Assembly (NCBI RefSeq): GCF_029023725.1
Contig: NZ_CP119075.1
Location: forward strand, 181,501 to 245,500
Length of the DNA stretch: 64,000 bases
Direction: 5' to 3'
Source of the DNA: Synoicihabitans lomoniglobus
GTDB taxonomy: Bacteria; Verrucomicrobiota; Verrucomicrobiia; Opitutales; Opitutaceae
Below the pieces are notes generated by a model. The model ran no database searches. It saw nothing but the letters and a program-made list of their open reading frames with translations, and was not told where the DNA came from. The position numbers and the translations under genes were made by a program. This document shows, in pieces, positions 30,739 through 40,554 of the stretch (position 1 is the stretch's first letter; each line of letters opens with the position of its first letter).

Positions 30739-30749
<11 letters not shown>
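30120..30749 (-). CDS. MOSC-domain-like protein
   Basis: 209 residues from ATG ATG at 30749/30746. The pattern ...[16 protein letters not shown]...[15 protein letters not shown]...[15 protein letters not shown]...[24 protein letters not shown] matches the MOSC beta-strand fold (GENI-type loop, PC motif with Cys, RGxYxxV, GD at the end). MOSC proteins bind molybdenum cofactor or handle sulfur through the conserved Cys; the role here is unknown. Its ATG lies inside the end of the metH C-terminal gene (overlap of 11 bp), so the two are co-translated. Confidence 0.7.
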
Positions 30750-33465
<2,716 letters not shown>

Positions 33466-33488: not shown

Positions 33489-33575
33489 CGTTATCGTTTC
33501 TCGTTCTCGGTTGGGTCTAGGTTCGACTCGAAGGCGACGGGCTCGAGAACGAGAAAGATTACGAGAACGAGAACG
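33489..33575. repeat. Palindromic repeat between the two metH genes
   Basis: CGTTATCGTTTCTCGTTCTCG (33489-33509) faces CGAGAACGAGAAAGATTACG (33544-33563). The arms match over at least 13 bp, with a second CGAGAACG unit beyond. It fills most of the 117-bp gap between the two metH genes and could attenuate or process the shared transcript. Confidence 0.75.
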
Positions 33576-33582
33576 AATAAAT

Positions 33583-34656
33583 TTAGGCTACGACCAGAGG
33601 TTCGAGGCCGGAGAGTTGCATGGTGGTGCGGCGGGCGGGAACCGGGCGGGGAGGGAGGCCTTTGACGGCTTCGGCGATGGCTTGGATGTGGTCGGGGGTG
33701 GAGCCGCAGCAGCCGCCGACGAGGTTGACGAAGCCGTCGGTCGCAAAGCTGCCGAGGTCTTCGCCCATGTGGGCGGGCGACTCGTCGTAACCGCCAAACG
33801 CGTTGGGCAAGCCGGCGTTGGGGTAACAGGTCACGTAGCACTCGGCGATGGAGGCGAGCTCTTCGAGATACGGGCGCATTTCCTTGGCGCCGAGGGCGCA
33901 GTTGATGCCGACGCTGAAAGGCTTGGCGTGGCGAATGGAATTGTAGAACGCAGCGATGGTCTGGCCGGACAGGGTGCGGCCGGAGGCGTCGGTGATGGTG
34001 ACGCTGATCATGATCGGCAGGCGGGTGCCGGTTTCCTCAAACACGGTTTGAGCGGCGAAAATCGCGGCCTTGGAATTGAGGGTGTCGAAGATCGTCTCGA
34101 TCAGGAGTGCATCGACGCCCGCGGCGACGAGGGCGCGGATCTGTTGAGTGTAGGCCGTGACGACCTGCTCCCATGTCACGGCGCGGTAGTCGGGCCGGTT
34201 GACATCGGGTGACATGGAGAGGGTGCGGTTTAGCGGACCGATGGCTCCGGCCACGAAACAACGACGGCCGGGCGCGGCGGCCTCGGCGGCATCGGCGGCG
34301 CGGCGGGCGCAGGCAACGGCAGCGGCATTGAGGTCGTCGACGATGGCTTCGAGCTTGTAGTCGGCCTGGGCGATCGTTGTGCCGCTAAAAGTGTTGGTTT
34401 CCACAATGTCCGCGCCGGCGGCGAAGTAGCGGGCGTGGATCTCCTCGATGATGTCAGGGCGGGTGAGGCTCAGCAGGTCGTTGTTGCCCTGCAGATCGTG
34501 GGCGTAGTCGGCGAAACGTTCGCCGCGAAAATCGGCTTCTTCGAGTTTGTAGCCCTGGACCACGGAACCCATGGCGCCGTCGAGCACGGCTATGCGCTCG
34601 GCGAAAAGGGCGTGGAGTTCGGCAAAGGCGGGAGAATCGGCAATGGCGGTCGTCAT
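33583..34656 (-). CDS. metH: Methionine synthase, N-terminal homocysteine-binding module
   Basis: 357 residues from the ATG at 34656 (MTTAIADSP; a TTG further out is open but less likely). It is the homocysteine S-methyltransferase domain: [14 protein letters not shown] at the start, [15 protein letters not shown], and zinc ligands Cys253 (GINCALG) and Cys316/Cys317 ([11 protein letters not shown]). In most bacteria this module is the N-terminus of a single MetH of about 1,200 residues; here it is a separate gene 117 bp upstream of the rest. It lies divergent from the btu genes, downstream of a cobalamin-riboswitch-like leader. Confidence 0.94.
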
Positions 34657-34700
34657 GGCAGGGCTTCGAACCAAGCACGGCTGACGCGCAATGCAAGAAA

Positions 34701-34732: not shown

Positions 34733-34832
34733 AAATGAAAATTGATTCGTCGGGCATGCCGTCCACCACGGCGAAGGTTCGGGGTTGATCTCTGGCCGGG
34801 AAGTCGTGGAGATCGCGGTCGTTCTTTCGATA

Positions 34833-34962
34833 CACCGTTCCAGGACGCAGGGAAGGCCGTGTAATTCGGTCACAGTTGCGCTGCGGTAACACACCAGTCT
34901 GAAGCCCCATTCGGTCCCGCTCTGCGGGATCGGAGCACAGCCAATCATTCGCAGGAATGGTG
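34833..34962 (-). promoter_or_regulatory. Cobalamin riboswitch-like element upstream of metH
   Basis: On the minus strand: a terminal stem (CACCATTCC with GGAACGGTG, 8 of 9 pairs), then a hairpin CCCGC/GCGGG, then ACCGAATGGGG matching the UUAAUAGGGAA element, then GGTGTGTTACC, and GCGCAACTGTGACC matching the B12 box (CCGCnACUGUnA). Order and spacing agree with a short cobalamin (Cbl-II type) aptamer. It lies about 177 bases upstream of the metH ATG and on that strand, not on the btuB strand. Confidence 0.65.
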
Positions 34963-35012
34963 AAGGCGGGGTAGAGGCAGAGCGCGCGAAGCGCGTAGGT
35001 CACAAGTGCCAG

Positions 35013-35095
35013 GGATCAAGTAGCAAGAAGTCGGAATCACCGGCCTTATCTTGGGACTTGAAACTTGAATCTTGTCACTTGCGAGCAAAGCGAGC
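35013..35095. repeat. Intergenic CTTG-rich repeat
   Basis: Contains GGATCAAGTAGCAAGAAGTCGG (35013-35034), related to the insert in metH, and a following GACTTGAAACTTGAATCTTG stretch with opposing orientation. It lies between the cobalamin aptamer and the btuB leader. Confidence 0.5.
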
Positions 35096-35212: not shown

Positions 35213-35279
35213 ATCTGCCGAAAGTCCCGACCGGACCGGAGGCAACTGCTCTTGCCTTATAAGACAGTTGTCCGAGTCC

Positions 35280-37154
35280 ATGAATAACCTCCCTTCATTC
35301 GCTTCCGTGGGAAGCGTCCTTCGTATTGCGTCTGCCGTCACGGCGGGGGCCGCGCTCGCGAGCTTCGCCTCCGCGCAGACACCGGCCACGCCGCTCGATC
35401 CGTTCGTCACCACCGCCACGCGCACGCCGGTTTCGGCTGCGCAACTCGGTTCGGCCGTCGACGTGATTTCGGCGGCCGACCTGCAACGTCGCCAAGTCAA
35501 CACGCTCGCGGGCGCCCTCAATACCGTGCCCGGCACGCCGAATTTTGCCTCCGGTGCAATGGGGGCGTTGGGTTCGATCTTTCTTCGCGGTGCCGAATCA
35601 GACCAGACGTTGTTTCTGGTCGATGGCATTCGGCTCAACGATCCCAATACCGACTATCAACTTTTCCTTGGCGGTTCCTGCGTGAGCGCGTGCGACAGCT
35701 TGGAAGTTTCGCACGGTCCGCAGAGCACGCTCTATGGTGGGGAAGCGATGGGCGGGGTGATTGCGATTGCGGCGCAACCCGGCACGGGCGAGCCGACCAC
35801 GCGGCTCGGCTTTGAGGCCGGCTCCTTCGGCACGGTGCAGGGCACGATTTACACGCAGGGCCAGCTGGACGCGACGGCCTACGTCGTGTCGATCACGGGT
35901 GGTCACACCGAAAACGATCGGCCGAACAACGCTTTTGACAGCGCTAACCTCGTGGCGCGCATCGATCATGCGCTGGCGTCGGGCGTGCGTATCGGCGCGA
36001 CGCTGCGCGGCTTTGAGGGGCGTTACGAATCGCCCGGTGATCGTTTCACCAACGATCCCGACAATACCGAAGACGAGTCCAACTGGCTCGCCACGGCTTA
36101 CGCCGAGTTTGACCCGTCCGAGGATCTGCATGTGCGCGTGACGCTCGGCGGTCAGGCTCGCGAGTTTGTCTCCACCAACCCCGGCGGTTTCGGCACGCAG
36201 GTGACGACCGTGACCAACAAGCGCGGCGTGCTCGACAGTCAGGTTTCCTACACTGGTCTCGCCGGACATCGGCTGACGGGCGGAGTGACGGCGGAAGCCA
36301 ACCATACGAAAAATGATGGTTTCGGTGACATCGACGAGAGCCAGTCACTGCTCGCCCTGTTCGTGCAGGATGAGATTGCACTCGGCGAACACGCCTGGCT
36401 CACGCTCGGCCTGCGTAGTGATGATCACGATACGTTTGGCCGCGCGACGACCGGTCGCGCGACGATTGCGTGGCAGGTCGTGCCGGAGCAGCTCAAGCTG
36501 CGCGCCAGCTACGGCACGGCGTTTCGCTCGCCGAGCTTTTTGGATCTGTATGGCCAGAGTTCCTATTACGCGGGCAACCCGGATCTGAATCCCGAAGAGG
36601 CGCGCGGTTGGGATGTCGGGGCGGATTTTTACTTCGCCGACAATCGCGGCACGCTGAGCGCGACGTATTTTGATTCCGACTACGATGATCTGATCATCTT
36701 TGACTTCGGGGTGTCGCCCGGCACGACGGCCAATGTCGATGCGGCCCGCACGCGCGGGGTCGAGACCAGCGGACGTTGGTCGGTGGGCGAGGGCACGGAG
36801 CTGCGCTTCAACTACACTTATCTCGACGCGACCAACGAGAGTAACGGCACGCGCTTGCTGCGGCGTCCGCGTCACTCGGGCGGCGTCGATGTTTGGCACG
36901 ACTTTGGCAACGGCTTCGATCTTGGCGTGGGGCTCGGTTTCGTGGCCGACCGCGAGGATGTTCACGCCGCGACGTTTGGCACCATCGACGCGGAGAACTA
37001 TGCCGTCGCCCGCGTGTATGCGGCGTGGCAGGTGCGCGCGGACGTGAAGCTGCGGGCTCGCGTCGAGAACGCGTTGGACGAAAGCTACGAGCAAGTGCAC
37101 GGCTTCCCGCAACCGGGCGTCGGCGCTTACGCTGGCGTCGAGTGGACGTTCTAA
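35280..37154 (+). CDS. btuB: TonB-dependent receptor, probable cobalamin transporter BtuB
   Basis: 624 residues from the ATG at 35280; a longer upstream frame runs through the structured leader and is unlikely. A signal peptide ends FASAQ, followed by a TonB-box-like segment (DPFVTTATRTPVS), a plug (about 40-150; GSIFLRGAESDQTLFLVDGIRLNDP and VSHGPQSTLYGGEAMGGVIAI) and a barrel ending VEWTF. The plug sequence resembles BtuB. Immediately downstream are btuF, btuC, btuD and cobO, so the ligand is very probably cobalamin or a cobinamide. It takes B12 across the outer membrane using TonB energy. Confidence 0.92.
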   Translation: MNNLPSFASVGSVLRIASAVTAGAALASFASAQTPATPLDPFVTTATRTPVSAAQLGSAVDVISAADLQRRQVNTLAGALNTVPGTPNFASGAMGALGSIFLRGAESDQTLFLVDGIRLNDPNTDYQLFLGGSCVSACDSLEVSHGPQSTLYGGEAMGGVIAIAAQPGTGEPTTRLGFEAGSFGTVQGTIYTQGQLDATAYVVSITGGHTENDRPNNAFDSANLVARIDHALASGVRIGATLRGFEGRYESPGDRFTNDPDNTEDESNWLATAYAEFDPSEDLHVRVTLGGQAREFVSTNPGGFGTQVTTVTNKRGVLDSQVSYTGLAGHRLTGGVTAEANHTKNDGFGDIDESQSLLALFVQDEIALGEHAWLTLGLRSDDHDTFGRATTGRATIAWQVVPEQLKLRASYGTAFRSPSFLDLYGQSSYYAGNPDLNPEEARGWDVGADFYFADNRGTLSATYFDSDYDDLIIFDFGVSPGTTANVDAARTRGVETSGRWSVGEGTELRFNYTYLDATNESNGTRLLRRPRHSGGVDVWHDFGNGFDLGVGLGFVADREDVHAATFGTIDAENYAVARVYAAWQVRADVKLRARVENALDESYEQVHGFPQPGVGAYAGVEWTF

Positions 37155-37217
37155 AAATTAACCACGAAATACACGAAACACCCGAAAGCTGAGGGACGAA
37201 CTTGGCTTTCGTTTTTT

Positions 37218-37301
37218 AACCACAGATGAACACAGATGGACACAGATTCAGAGGCACCGCGCTGCAGGCTTGTCTGGGTTTATCTGTGTTCATCTGTGGT
37301 T
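37218..37301. repeat. Inverted repeat containing the start and signal peptide of btuF
   Basis: Left arm AACCACAGATGAACACAGAT (37218-37237) is the perfect complement of the right arm (37282-37301). The btuF ATG (37226) is inside the left arm and the hydrophobic core of its signal peptide is encoded by the right arm. A related TTAACCACGAAATACACGAA stretch lies just upstream near 37158. Confidence 0.85.
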
Positions 37302-38125
37302 GTTTTTTGGGCGGATTGAAGGCGGAGGCGGCCGACCCTATCCGGGTGGTTTCGCAGACGGTGGGGACGGATGAATTGTTGTTGGCGGTGGCGGACGCGG
37401 AGCAGATTGCGGCGTTGAGTCACTTGGCGGCGGAGACGGAGTTTTCGGCGGTGGTGGCGGAGGCGCGGGATTTTCCTTTGCTTACCAAGGGCGGGGACGC
37501 CGAAACGATTTTGAAGTATCGGCCCACGCACGTGCTGGTCGCCGATTACAGTCGGGCGGACTTGGTGGCGCAGCTGGAACGCGCGGGCATCGTGGTGATG
37601 AAGTTTACGAAGTATCACACGCTGGATGATGCGTTTGAGAATTTACGGTGGTTGGCGGAGGTATTGGGGCCGGAGGCGGAGGCGCGGGCGGAGCGCGTGA
37701 TCGCGGACACGCAGGCTCGCTCGCGGGCGCTCGCGACGCGGCTGGACGGAGTGCGCTTGGTCAAAGTGATCGCACCATCGACCTACGGCGTGATTGGCGG
37801 TGCGGGCACGACGTTTCAGGATTTGTGCGACCATGCGGGCGGAGAAAATCTGGCGAGCACGGTGGGTGGTTTGACGGGCCATGAGCCGACGCCGCGCGAG
37901 TCGATGCTGACCTGGCCGGTGGAGAAAGTTGTGGTGGCGGGTAAAGATCGGGCGATGGCATTGGAGCCGTATGCGCGGTTGGCGCCCTATCAGTTCATGG
38001 CTGCGGTTAAGGACGGTCGGGTGGCGTTGATCGAGCCGTGGATGATGAGCACGGTGTCACATCATCGCGTGGCGGCGTATGAACAACTGGCGCGTGAACT
38101 GCATCCGGAGGTGTTTGCCAAGTGA
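37226..38125 (+). CDS. btuF: Cobalamin-binding periplasmic protein BtuF-like
   Basis: 299 residues. The N-terminus (MNTDGHRFRGTALQACLGLSVFICGC...AEAAD) is signal-like but encoded by an inverted repeat. The mature part has the two-lobed ABC binding-protein plan of the BtuF/TroA type: RVVSQTVGTDELLLAVADAEQIAALSH, then TILKYRPTHVLVADYS, a linking helix and C-lobe (VKVIAPSTYGVIGGAGTTFQDLCDHAGGENLA). It delivers B12 to BtuCD. The stop overlaps the btuC GTG by 4 bp (GTGA). The true start could be different if the repeat is not translated. Confidence 0.88.
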   Translation: MNTDGHRFRGTALQACLGLSVFICGCFLGGLKAEAADPIRVVSQTVGTDELLLAVADAEQIAALSHLAAETEFSAVVAEARDFPLLTKGGDAETILKYRPTHVLVADYSRADLVAQLERAGIVVMKFTKYHTLDDAFENLRWLAEVLGPEAEARAERVIADTQARSRALATRLDGVRLVKVIAPSTYGVIGGAGTTFQDLCDHAGGENLASTVGGLTGHEPTPRESMLTWPVEKVVVAGKDRAMALEPYARLAPYQFMAAVKDGRVALIEPWMMSTVSHHRVAAYEQLARELHPEVFAK

Positions 38126-39099
38126 AGAGCGACACCGGATCGACGGGACCATTGTTGGCCGCAGTCGGCGTGCTGTTGGTCGCGTTGCTGGGATCGCTCG
38201 GCGTGGGCGACATGGCGTTGTCGCCGAAGATGATTTGGGCGGGGTTGACGTATCAGGACGACATGGCGGCGGTGGTATTGTGGAACATCCGATTGCCGCG
38301 GGCCTTGGTCGCGGTGGAAATCGGGGCGGCGTTGGCGGCGAGCGGCTTGGTGATGCAGGCGTTTTTTCGCAACAGCCTCGCGAGCCCTGGACTTCTCGGC
38401 GTGAGTGCGGGTGGTTCGGCGGGAGCGGTGGTCGCGATCGCGGCGGGTTGGGCGACGACGTCGTTTTTTGTGGTGCCGACGGCGGCGATCGTCGGTGCGA
38501 TGCTGGCGACAGTGGCGGTGATTGGCTTGGCCAAACGGGGGGCGAGCACGGAGCGACTGCTGTTGGCGGGTATTGCGCTCAACGCGTTGCTCGGTGCGAT
38601 CACGAGTTACGTGTTGTCGAACTTTACGCTGAGTTATGAGCGCAACGCGCAGATCATTTTCTGGCTGTTGGGGGGACTGGAGGATCGCACCTGGGAACAC
38701 GTGACGATGGCGGCGCCGATTGTGGTGGGAGCGGCGTTGTTGTGGCCATTGGGGCGAGCGATGGACCTGCTGAGTTTGGGGGGGGACGAGGCGCAAAGTC
38801 TGGGCGTGGATGTGCGCAGCGTGCGCCGACGCATGTTGGTCTTGGCGACGGTGATGACGGCGTTGGCGACGGCGGTGGCGGGCACGGTGGCGTTTGTGGG
38901 GCTGGTGGTCCCGCATCTGTTACGGCTGGCGTTTGGCCCGGGACATCGGCGGCTGGTGCCGTTGTCACTGATCGGGGGCGCGGCGTTTGTCTTGATCTGT
39001 GATGTAATCGGCCGTTCGGCCGGCAATGTGCGGCTGGGTATTGTCACCTCGCTGGTGGGCGGTCCGTTTTTCCTGTGGATGCTAAGGAGGGCCGGTTGA
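38122..39099 (+). CDS. btuC: Cobalamin ABC transporter permease BtuC-like
   Basis: 325 residues with a GTG start. About ten membrane helices are visible. It has the FecCD/BtuC family signatures NIRLPRALVAVEIGAALAASGLVMQAFFRN, LLGVSAGGSAGA, and at the C-terminus VAFVGLVVPHLLRLAFGPGHRR then ICDVIGRSAGN. As a homodimer it forms the inner-membrane channel for B12, driven by BtuD. Coupled to btuF by a 4-bp overlap. The next gene, btuD, is separated by a long hairpin. Confidence 0.95.
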   Translation: MKSDTGSTGPLLAAVGVLLVALLGSLGVGDMALSPKMIWAGLTYQDDMAAVVLWNIRLPRALVAVEIGAALAASGLVMQAFFRNSLASPGLLGVSAGGSAGAVVAIAAGWATTSFFVVPTAAIVGAMLATVAVIGLAKRGASTERLLLAGIALNALLGAITSYVLSNFTLSYERNAQIIFWLLGGLEDRTWEHVTMAAPIVVGAALLWPLGRAMDLLSLGGDEAQSLGVDVRSVRRRMLVLATVMTALATAVAGTVAFVGLVVPHLLRLAFGPGHRRLVPLSLIGGAAFVLICDVIGRSAGNVRLGIVTSLVGGPFFLWMLRRAG

Positions 39100-39190: not shown

Positions 39191-39244
39191 TCATTCTCGA
39201 TGGCACTCGATTGTCTCTGGTGAAAAAAGAACGGAGGCGTGGAT

Positions 39245-39958
39245 ATGAAGGCGCTCGAGTTGAACAACGTCGCGGTGGCGGGGCGCCTTGAGCCGATGAG
39301 TCTGGCGTTGGAGCCGGGGCAATTGGTCGGGTTGGTGGGACCAAATGGTAGCGGGAAGTCCACGTTGTTGTCGATCGCCGCCGGACTGTTGGATGGTGGC
39401 GGCGACGTGCGTTGGGGCGGGAAACCGTTGGCCGGTATTCCAATGGTGGAGCGCGGCCGACTGGCGGCGTGGGTGCCGCAGGAGGCGCGGTTCGAGTTTG
39501 GGTTTTCGGTCCGCGAGGTCGTGGGGCAGGGACGTTTCGCGCACGGCGATGATGACGAGGGCGTGGCGGAGGCGCTGGCCCGGTTTGATTTGGAGGCGTT
39601 GGCCGAACGGCCGGTAAATCGGCTTTCGGGTGGGGAGCGTCAGCGGGTGATGTTGGCGCGGGCTCTCGCCACGGACGCGCGGTTGCACTTTTGGGACGAA
39701 CCCTTGGCGGCGCTCGATGTGCGGCACGGATTGGCGGGGTTGAAGCTTGCGGCTGAACTGACCGGTCGGGGCAAGACGGTGGTGATGTCCCTGCACGATT
39801 TGCGGGCGGCCCACTGTCTTGATCGGCTCATCCTGCTTGATCGGGGCAAACTGGTGGCAATCGACAGACCGGAGGCCGTGTTGACGGCGGAGCGGCTGAG
39901 CGCGGTGTTTGGCGTGCGGTTGCGTCACGGCGAAGGCCCGATATTGGAATTACCATGA
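39245..39958 (+). CDS. btuD: Cobalamin ABC transporter ATPase BtuD-like
   Basis: 237 residues from the ATG at 39245, chosen because GGAGG lies 8 bases upstream (an earlier GTG is only 2 bases from it). Walker A GPNGSGKST at residues 32-40, signature LSGGERQ, Walker B LHFWDEPLAALD (with catalytic Glu), and switch His in MSLHDLRAA. It powers BtuC. It ends in an ATGA overlap with the adenosyltransferase gene. Confidence 0.93.
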   Translation: MKALELNNVAVAGRLEPMSLALEPGQLVGLVGPNGSGKSTLLSIAAGLLDGGGDVRWGGKPLAGIPMVERGRLAAWVPQEARFEFGFSVREVVGQGRFAHGDDDEGVAEALARFDLEALAERPVNRLSGGERQRVMLARALATDARLHFWDEPLAALDVRHGLAGLKLAAELTGRGKTVVMSLHDLRAAHCLDRLILLDRGKLVAIDRPEAVLTAERLSAVFGVRLRHGEGPILELP

Positions 39959-40554
39959 GCAAAACCAGCGCAGCCGACGAGCATCGTGAGAAAATGGAAA
40001 CGATGCAGCACAAGATGAAGGCCAAGATGAAGGCGGCGCAGGAGAAGCGTGGTCTCATCATTGTGAATACGGGCAACGGCAAAGGCAAAAGCACGGCCGC
40101 TTTCGGCGTGCTGGCTCGCACCCTCGCCCACGGTGGCAAGGCAATGGTGGTGCAATTCATCAAGGCGACCGCGGATGCGGCGGAGAAAGTGCTGCGGGGG
40201 CCGCAGCTCACCTGGCACGCGGTGGGCGGAGGGTTTACCTGGGACACCCAGGACAAGGCGGCAGATATTGCACTGTGCGAAAAAGGTTGGGCGCTGGCGG
40301 TGTCGGCCATGAGCGATCCTGAGTTGAAACTGCTGGTGCTCGATGAGCTCAACGTGGTGTTGAGCTTCAACTATCTGCCGCTGGGGGCGGTGTCGGCCGC
40401 CCTGCGCGAAAAATCGCCGGACCTGCATGTCGTTATCACGGGACGCGATGCGCCGGATGACTTGATCGAACTGGCGGACTTGGTGTCGGAGATCGGCGAG
40501 CTGAAGCACCCGTTTTCCCGGGGCGTAAAAGCGCAGGCCGGACTGGAATTTTAA
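39955..40554 (+). CDS. cobO: Cob(I)yrinic acid a,c-diamide adenosyltransferase (CobA/CobO type)
   Basis: 199 residues. A charged N-terminal helix (about 8-32) precedes a P-loop GNGKGKST at residues 40-47 and the CobA/BtuR-type segments FIKATADAAEK, GGGFTWDTQDKAAD, LLVLDELNVVLSFNYL and VVITGRDAPDDLIELADLVSEI. It transfers the adenosyl group of ATP to Co(I) corrinoid, making coenzyme B12. Translationally coupled (ATGA) to btuD, so imported corrinoids are adenosylated at once. No de novo cobalamin synthesis genes are in the window, so it acts in salvage. Confidence 0.95.
   Translation: MSKTSAADEHREKMETMQHKMKAKMKAAQEKRGLIIVNTGNGKGKSTAAFGVLARTLAHGGKAMVVQFIKATADAAEKVLRGPQLTWHAVGGGFTWDTQDKAADIALCEKGWALAVSAMSDPELKLLVLDELNVVLSFNYLPLGAVSAALREKSPDLHVVITGRDAPDDLIELADLVSEIGELKHPFSRGVKAQAGLEF

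Follow-up and report, generated by a model that had tools for sequence, protein, structure and literature searches.

The analysis of the window, i.e., the whole stretch of 64,000 nucleotides from Synoicihabitans lomoniglobus, indicated that the signal peptide of its BtuF protein is probably a captured dispersed palindromic repeat, which would have replaced an earlier signal derived from a repeat of another family. The proposed mechanism starts from a hyphenated palindrome of a family that we call B, inserted in frame where btuF begins. The start codon and the polar n-region would be provided by its left arm; most of the hydrophobic h-region would be encoded in its right arm, and the native DNA that follows would complete the h-region and add the cleavage region (LKAEA^AD). 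The earlier signal would have been of the same kind and derived from family A, a truncated remnant of which lies just upstream. The features concerned, all on the plus strand, are as follows.

35277..37154 (start approximate), +: btuB-like TonB-dependent receptor gene directly upstream of btuF (Pfam/NCBIfam)
37160..37211, +: truncated family-A palindrome (CCACGAAATACACGAAA...CTTTCG) with the left arm, the loop and the first right-arm bases
37217..37219, +: in-frame TAA at the left edge of the family-B repeat, so that no upstream start is possible
37218..37246, +: left arm of the family-B inverted repeat with the btuF ATG; reads MNTDGHR (polar n-region)
37226..38125, +: btuF, periplasmic cobalamin-binding protein homologue of 299 aa (PF01497, Peripla_BP_2, E 6e-13)
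37247..37272, +: loop of the family-B repeat; encodes FRGTALQA and part of C16
37273..37301, +: right arm of the family-B repeat; encodes LGLSVFICG (L17-G25), the main part of the hydrophobic h-region
37302..37334, +: stub from the repeat to the conserved mature domain; FLGG and the c-region LKAEA, with AEA^AD as the candidate signal peptidase I site
38122..39099, +: btuC-like FecCD permease gene (Pfam/NCBIfam)
39239..39958, +: btuD-like ABC ATPase gene (Pfam/NCBIfam)
39955..40554, +: cobO/btuR adenosyltransferase gene (Pfam/NCBIfam)

The identification of BtuF was based on its Peripla_BP_2 domain and on its btuB, btuC, btuD and btuR neighbours; BtuB, BtuC and BtuD fall short of the equivalog cut-offs and were assigned by Pfam together with NCBIfam. 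The gene order btuB-btuF-btuC-btuD-cobO is intact, as is the btuF frame, whose product is 70% identical to that of the relative G090. In Escherichia coli, BtuF is the periplasmic cobalamin-binding protein of the BtuCDF transporter and has a Sec signal peptide. The protein studied here would be alike in its role and in its predicted Sec signal, but the signal in E. coli is native and free of any repeat, whereas that in the window would be repeat-encoded. Additionally, a full-length but sub-threshold match to the cobalamin riboswitch was found at 34799-35062 (+), with 23 bits against a gathering score of 31.5 and an E value of 0.011; its position just upstream of btuB suggests that it is real. 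In the same region, MetH is split into two adjacent genes, 30742-33465 (-) and 33586-34674 (-), one with the homocysteine S-methyltransferase domain and the other with the pterin, B12 and activation domains. The gap between them holds an inverted repeat of another type, TCGTTCTCG...CGAGAACGA, with arms at 33491-33509 and 33562-33580.

An earlier note on this DNA had described a perfect 20-bp inverted repeat at 37218-37301 with the btuF ATG in its left arm. Both were found exactly there (the ATG at 37226-37228), and the arms in fact extend to 29 nt with 90% complementarity around a 26-nt loop. The outer 20 bp have no mismatches on both arms, and no such match was expected by chance in the window (100 dinucleotide shuffles). 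The hydrophobic core LSVFICGC, which the note placed in the right arm, can be kept as LGLSVFICG (codons 17-25); the codon of its final Cys only straddles the arm end (37301-37303). The stub that follows reads CFLGGLKAEAADP and continues into the conserved RVVSQTVG of BtuF, and the predicted leader is MNTDGHRFRGTALQACLGLSVFICGCFLGGLKAEA. As RNA, the 84-nt repeat has a predicted fold of -48.5 kcal/mol (z = -7.9). An Rfam match of the hairpin to mir-3149 (E 0.0047, far below the gathering score) was discarded and attributed to chance, given the stability of the stem.

Because the in-frame TAA abuts the repeat, an upstream start of BtuF is ruled out and no part of the N-terminus can come from upstream. 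The starts after the repeat consist of two in-frame TTG codons (37307 and 37316), which would give MGGLKAEAADP or MKAEAADP. Signal peptides were assessed by simple hydropathy: the best 10-residue mean is +0.52 from these TTG starts compared with +2.57 for the full N-terminus, and the latter falls inside the range of about +1.87 to +2.84 that was obtained for the leaders of BtuF in the relatives. The leader has the features of a predicted Sec signal, i.e., an n-region with a net charge of +1, the core LSVFICGCFL (mean +2.57) and the candidate site AEA^AD. Since the TAA closes the frame upstream and the downstream starts yield no hydrophobic segment, the repeat would have to encode both the start and the signal of BtuF if the protein is exported. 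The same two observations favour the co-option of the repeat as an export signal, which the earlier note had offered as one possibility, and nearly exclude its alternative that the true start lies elsewhere and gives a different N-terminus. From the sequence we infer translation from ATG 37226, export and cleavage at the candidate site. No Shine-Dalgarno motif was seen for this ATG, and the ATG lies within a stem of about -48 kcal/mol, so that initiation could be weak. The insertion at btuF looks recent, judging by its near-consensus arms. The openness of the frame is not in itself strong evidence, because 19 of 48 readings of family-B copies have no stop between the left-arm ATG and the end of the right arm anyway.

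The repeat belongs to a dispersed family; the earlier note had called it a type common in intergenic DNA. Genome-wide counts were obtained by pattern searches and by reading fetched regions. With up to two mismatches, 40 family-B arm matches were found in the 5.93-Mb genome and none with the reversed-pattern control. About 20 two-armed copies were read; their loops vary, and the loop of the btuF copy is unlike the others. The family-A arm matches numbered 77 in the window's genome and 36, 37 and 14 in its relatives G111, G128 and G145, respectively (reversed controls, 0-5). Most copies of both families are plainly intergenic, often with a conserved native start immediately downstream, so the capture of a repeat by a gene is uncommon per copy. 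The mobility of the repeat is presumed, as is the domestication of which the earlier note spoke.

REPs and RAYT-driven REPINs are likewise short, dispersed and mostly intergenic palindromes (PMC3733652; PMC3116915), and Di Nocera and colleagues found REPs to be abundant, and some of them intragenic, in Opitutus terrae (PMC3733652). REPs are defined by a terminal tag, GTAG or CGTC, on one side of the palindrome (PMC3733652), whereas the copies of A and B that were read end in AACCAC and GTGGTT and have no such tag. The window's genome has 18 matches to the Y1 transposase (PF01797); at the 12 of these 18 loci that were inspected (L213-L224), no A or B palindrome was found beside the Y1_Tnp gene, and one B arm was located more than 1 kb away. 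Y1_Tnp was also not found in Geothrix G152, which has repeats. A REP/RAYT origin was rejected, given the missing tag and the unlinked transposase genes. Terminal inverted repeats of the MITE type are present, with arms at both ends of the copies, and the flanks of the family-B copies are often a complementary T-run and A-run, not direct repeats. The repeat at btuF is dispersed, in frame and open and, if it is translated, may count among the intragenic palindromic elements of the RPE/RU type. Families A, B, D and E (D and E are described below) share the ends AACC(A/G)C...G(T/C)GGTT (e.g., L104-L123 and L163-L182), and their arms are tandem units of roughly 8-11 bp. The common ends and the similar tandem-unit arms suggest that these four are one superfamily with changing inner units. 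Nothing on point was found in the literature on AACCAC-ended families in Opitutaceae or Geothrix.

Comparison of the btuF 5' ends in relatives, which the earlier note had proposed as a check, showed that the signals are unrelated and unconserved and that several are written by other repeats; a conserved unrelated signal with the repeat placed upstream was not seen among them. In G111, G128 and G145, all of the same genus, the hydrophobic segment of BtuF comes from the right arm of a family-A palindrome, with the ATG in the loop. Family A consists of CACGAAATA units, and its right arm is read as RVISCLFVGFL and similar. The btuF genes of G020, G064 and G090 have ordinary, unrelated signals, and the BtuF N-terminus of G150, also of this genus, matches that of Candidatus Synoicihabitans palmerolidicus (L057), so that the genus corresponds to Actomonas/Synoicihabitans (Opitutaceae). 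A family-A palindrome in G090 was considered and rejected: 38 of 500 shuffles scored as high as its arms, which are therefore not significant.

In the tree of mature BtuF, the window groups with G090, G111, G128 and G145 (93/92). Intact A copies in the window's genome have the same layout as the remnant upstream of btuF and then a right arm of about 22 nt, which is absent at btuF; family B occupies the place of the rest of this arm. The truncated A, with B standing in for its right arm, suggests a serial replacement of A by B at btuF. On the simplest reading, and with the order of insertions presumed, A was captured in the common ancestor of this group; it then decayed or disappeared in G090, and in the window's lineage B replaced its right arm. 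It is possible that family A was instead inserted independently in different species.

Similar arrangements were found outside the genus. Among 34 btuF loci of Holophagae, seven have palindromes in the N-terminal coding region of btuF, which belong to four further families:

Family C: CACCAAG units; L083 (Geothrix fermentans), L077 and L089
Family D: GCAGATGAC units; L072 (Geothrix fuzhouensis) and L074
Family E: CACAGAG units; L071
Family F: seen as an inverted repeat; L085

C, D and E proved to be dispersed, multi-copy inverted repeats in the genomes that carry them. In Holophagae, the btuB stop usually overlaps the btuF start (TGATG). This overlap is kept in five repeat-bearing loci, all five of which are in frame and open through the repeat, and its ATG is lost (TGACG) in both loci in which the repeat puts it out of frame. 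In L072, the only in-frame ATG, GTG or TTG starts that retain the signal are two ATGs in the left arm of the repeat, and we regard this locus as an independent copy of the arrangement predicted for the window. Strict inverted repeats were present in the 160-bp 5' zone of btuF in three of the 34 Holophagae loci; the remaining parts of these loci gave an expectation of 0.22 (nominal P 0.0015, which ignores shared descent). The Opitutales loci of the same set showed no enrichment in this zone (1 vs 0.27 expected). In the BtuF tree, neither the carriers of C nor those of D form a single clade, which makes event counts uncertain; families, not carriers, were counted as the minimum number of events. 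The apparent recurrence at btuF comprises at least six repeat families in two phyla. Moreover, in four Opitutales loci (L035, L038, L052 and L063), the hydrophobic leaders of BtuF come from low-complexity repeats of a tandem type upstream of RVVSQ, examples of which are LLLFTLHLSPFTLR, CTTTCACCCTTCA, TTCAGCCTTCAG and TTGAAATTTGGGA.

Three other explanations were weighed. The first, which we consider unlikely, is that the repeat is non-coding, i.e., an extragenic hairpin in the 5' leader that acts on the mRNA, with translation starting downstream. It agrees with the very stable stem, with the position of most A and B copies between genes and often just before a conserved native start, and with the argument that in several species the true start is downstream of most REPs at annotated N-termini (PMC3733652). 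However, the only in-frame starts after the repeat are the TTG codons in the stub, which give proteins without a hydrophobic segment; L072 obtains a signal from no start other than those of its repeat, and all five Holophagae loci that retain TGATG are open and in frame through theirs. Slightly less probable still is a start inside the repeat at GTG 37286 in the right arm (MFICGCFLGGLKAEA) instead of at ATG 37226. The left arm is not needed in that case, and repeat-derived GTG starts at the right-arm end look likely in L196, L205, L195 and L077. Such a start could give a shorter and weaker signal that would still be repeat-encoded, but it would lack a positive n-region, its core would reach +2.15 compared with +2.57, and it is as buried in the stem as the ATG. 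That btuF is being lost, with the insertion having removed the native signal and the open frame being a relic, is improbable: the insertion looks recent and the ATG is sequestered, but the 299-codon frame, its identity to G090 and the operon order are all preserved, and the relatives in the genus already have repeat-derived signals with intact genes. The capture of the family-B repeat as start and signal remains the preferred reading.

Repeat-derived N-termini were not confined to btuF. When the family-B right arms were read in 30 loci of the family, several ran into Pfam-verified genes with no other start before the conserved part of the gene. An abhydrolase with a predicted lipoprotein-type signal appears to start in the left arm or the loop of a B repeat (L190), and a DUF3999 protein with a strong predicted signal starts at an ATG in the left arm or at a GTG at the right-arm end (L196). 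For the Ppx/GppA and tRNA-synt_1c genes of L205 and L195, the GTG of the repeat is the probable start. A T2SSG-type pseudopilin in the window's genome (L165, 1023-1778, minus strand; PF08334, PF07963) has a leader that is encoded by a family-A palindrome just before GFTLIELLVV. In G010 (L186, 887-2095, minus strand), an NAD-dependent epimerase gene appears to contain, in its middle and in frame, an inserted family-B-like repeat with an adjoining GGAAACC tandem repeat.

The ease of such captures could be explained by the genetic code, since an A at codon position 2 of one strand pairs with a T at this position of the other; this complementarity is known as antisense hydropathy. The codons of an A-rich left arm would specify polar or charged residues, and those of its T-rich complement Phe, Leu, Ile, Val and Cys. 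In either orientation, such a palindrome would give a polar arm and then a hydrophobic one, in the order found in signal peptides. In the three frames of the six families, the mean hydropathy of the left arms was about -0.9 to -4.2 and that of the right arms about 0 to +3.2. The polar left and mostly hydrophobic right arm in every family follow from the swap at position 2. In random inverted repeats, the left and right hydropathies had a correlation of -0.38, and differences above 3 occurred in only 1%. The right arms of all six families have no stops in the three frames, families B and D have an ATG in the left arm, and every family has GTG or TTG in at least one right-arm frame. The presence of different repeats at the same place suggests that palindromes are ready-made raw material for export signals.

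One related precedent is the RU-2/Yersinia palindromic sequence in YPO1552 that was described by Delihas (2007; PMC2759123). It concerns a different, 168-bp element in a single putative protein of unknown function, with no recurrence at one gene, no arm-derived start codon and no repeat replacing a repeat; by contrast, the gene here is a conserved transport gene, at which six or more families were found across two phyla. Rickettsia palindromic elements (RPEs; Ogata et al., 2000, as recounted in PMC2229807) are hairpin-forming repeats that are located in frame in conserved genes and are translated, and in that account their insertions have a neutral or mildly harmful effect, whereas the repeat in the window would supply the start codon and a needed targeting signal. 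What seems to be new is the predicted provision of the start and core for a conserved transporter subunit, the recurrence at one gene and what appears to be the displacement of family A by family B.

Signal peptides change rapidly in evolution, those of relatives seldom share homology, and the origin of new ones is poorly documented. The common palindromes, whose arms already resemble an n-region and then an h-region, offer a concrete and testable source, and the btuF loci provide natural replicates at a single gene. Such N-termini in PVC and Acidobacteria genomes would not always be annotation errors. We suggest tentatively, and with somewhat less than even confidence, that palindromes with an A-rich left arm are pre-adapted, that any of them landing at the 5' end of the gene for an exported protein can donate or replace its signal, and that btuF is a recurrent site at which different repeats follow one another. 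If true, this would be a general and hitherto unrecognised route for the birth and turnover of bacterial signal peptides.
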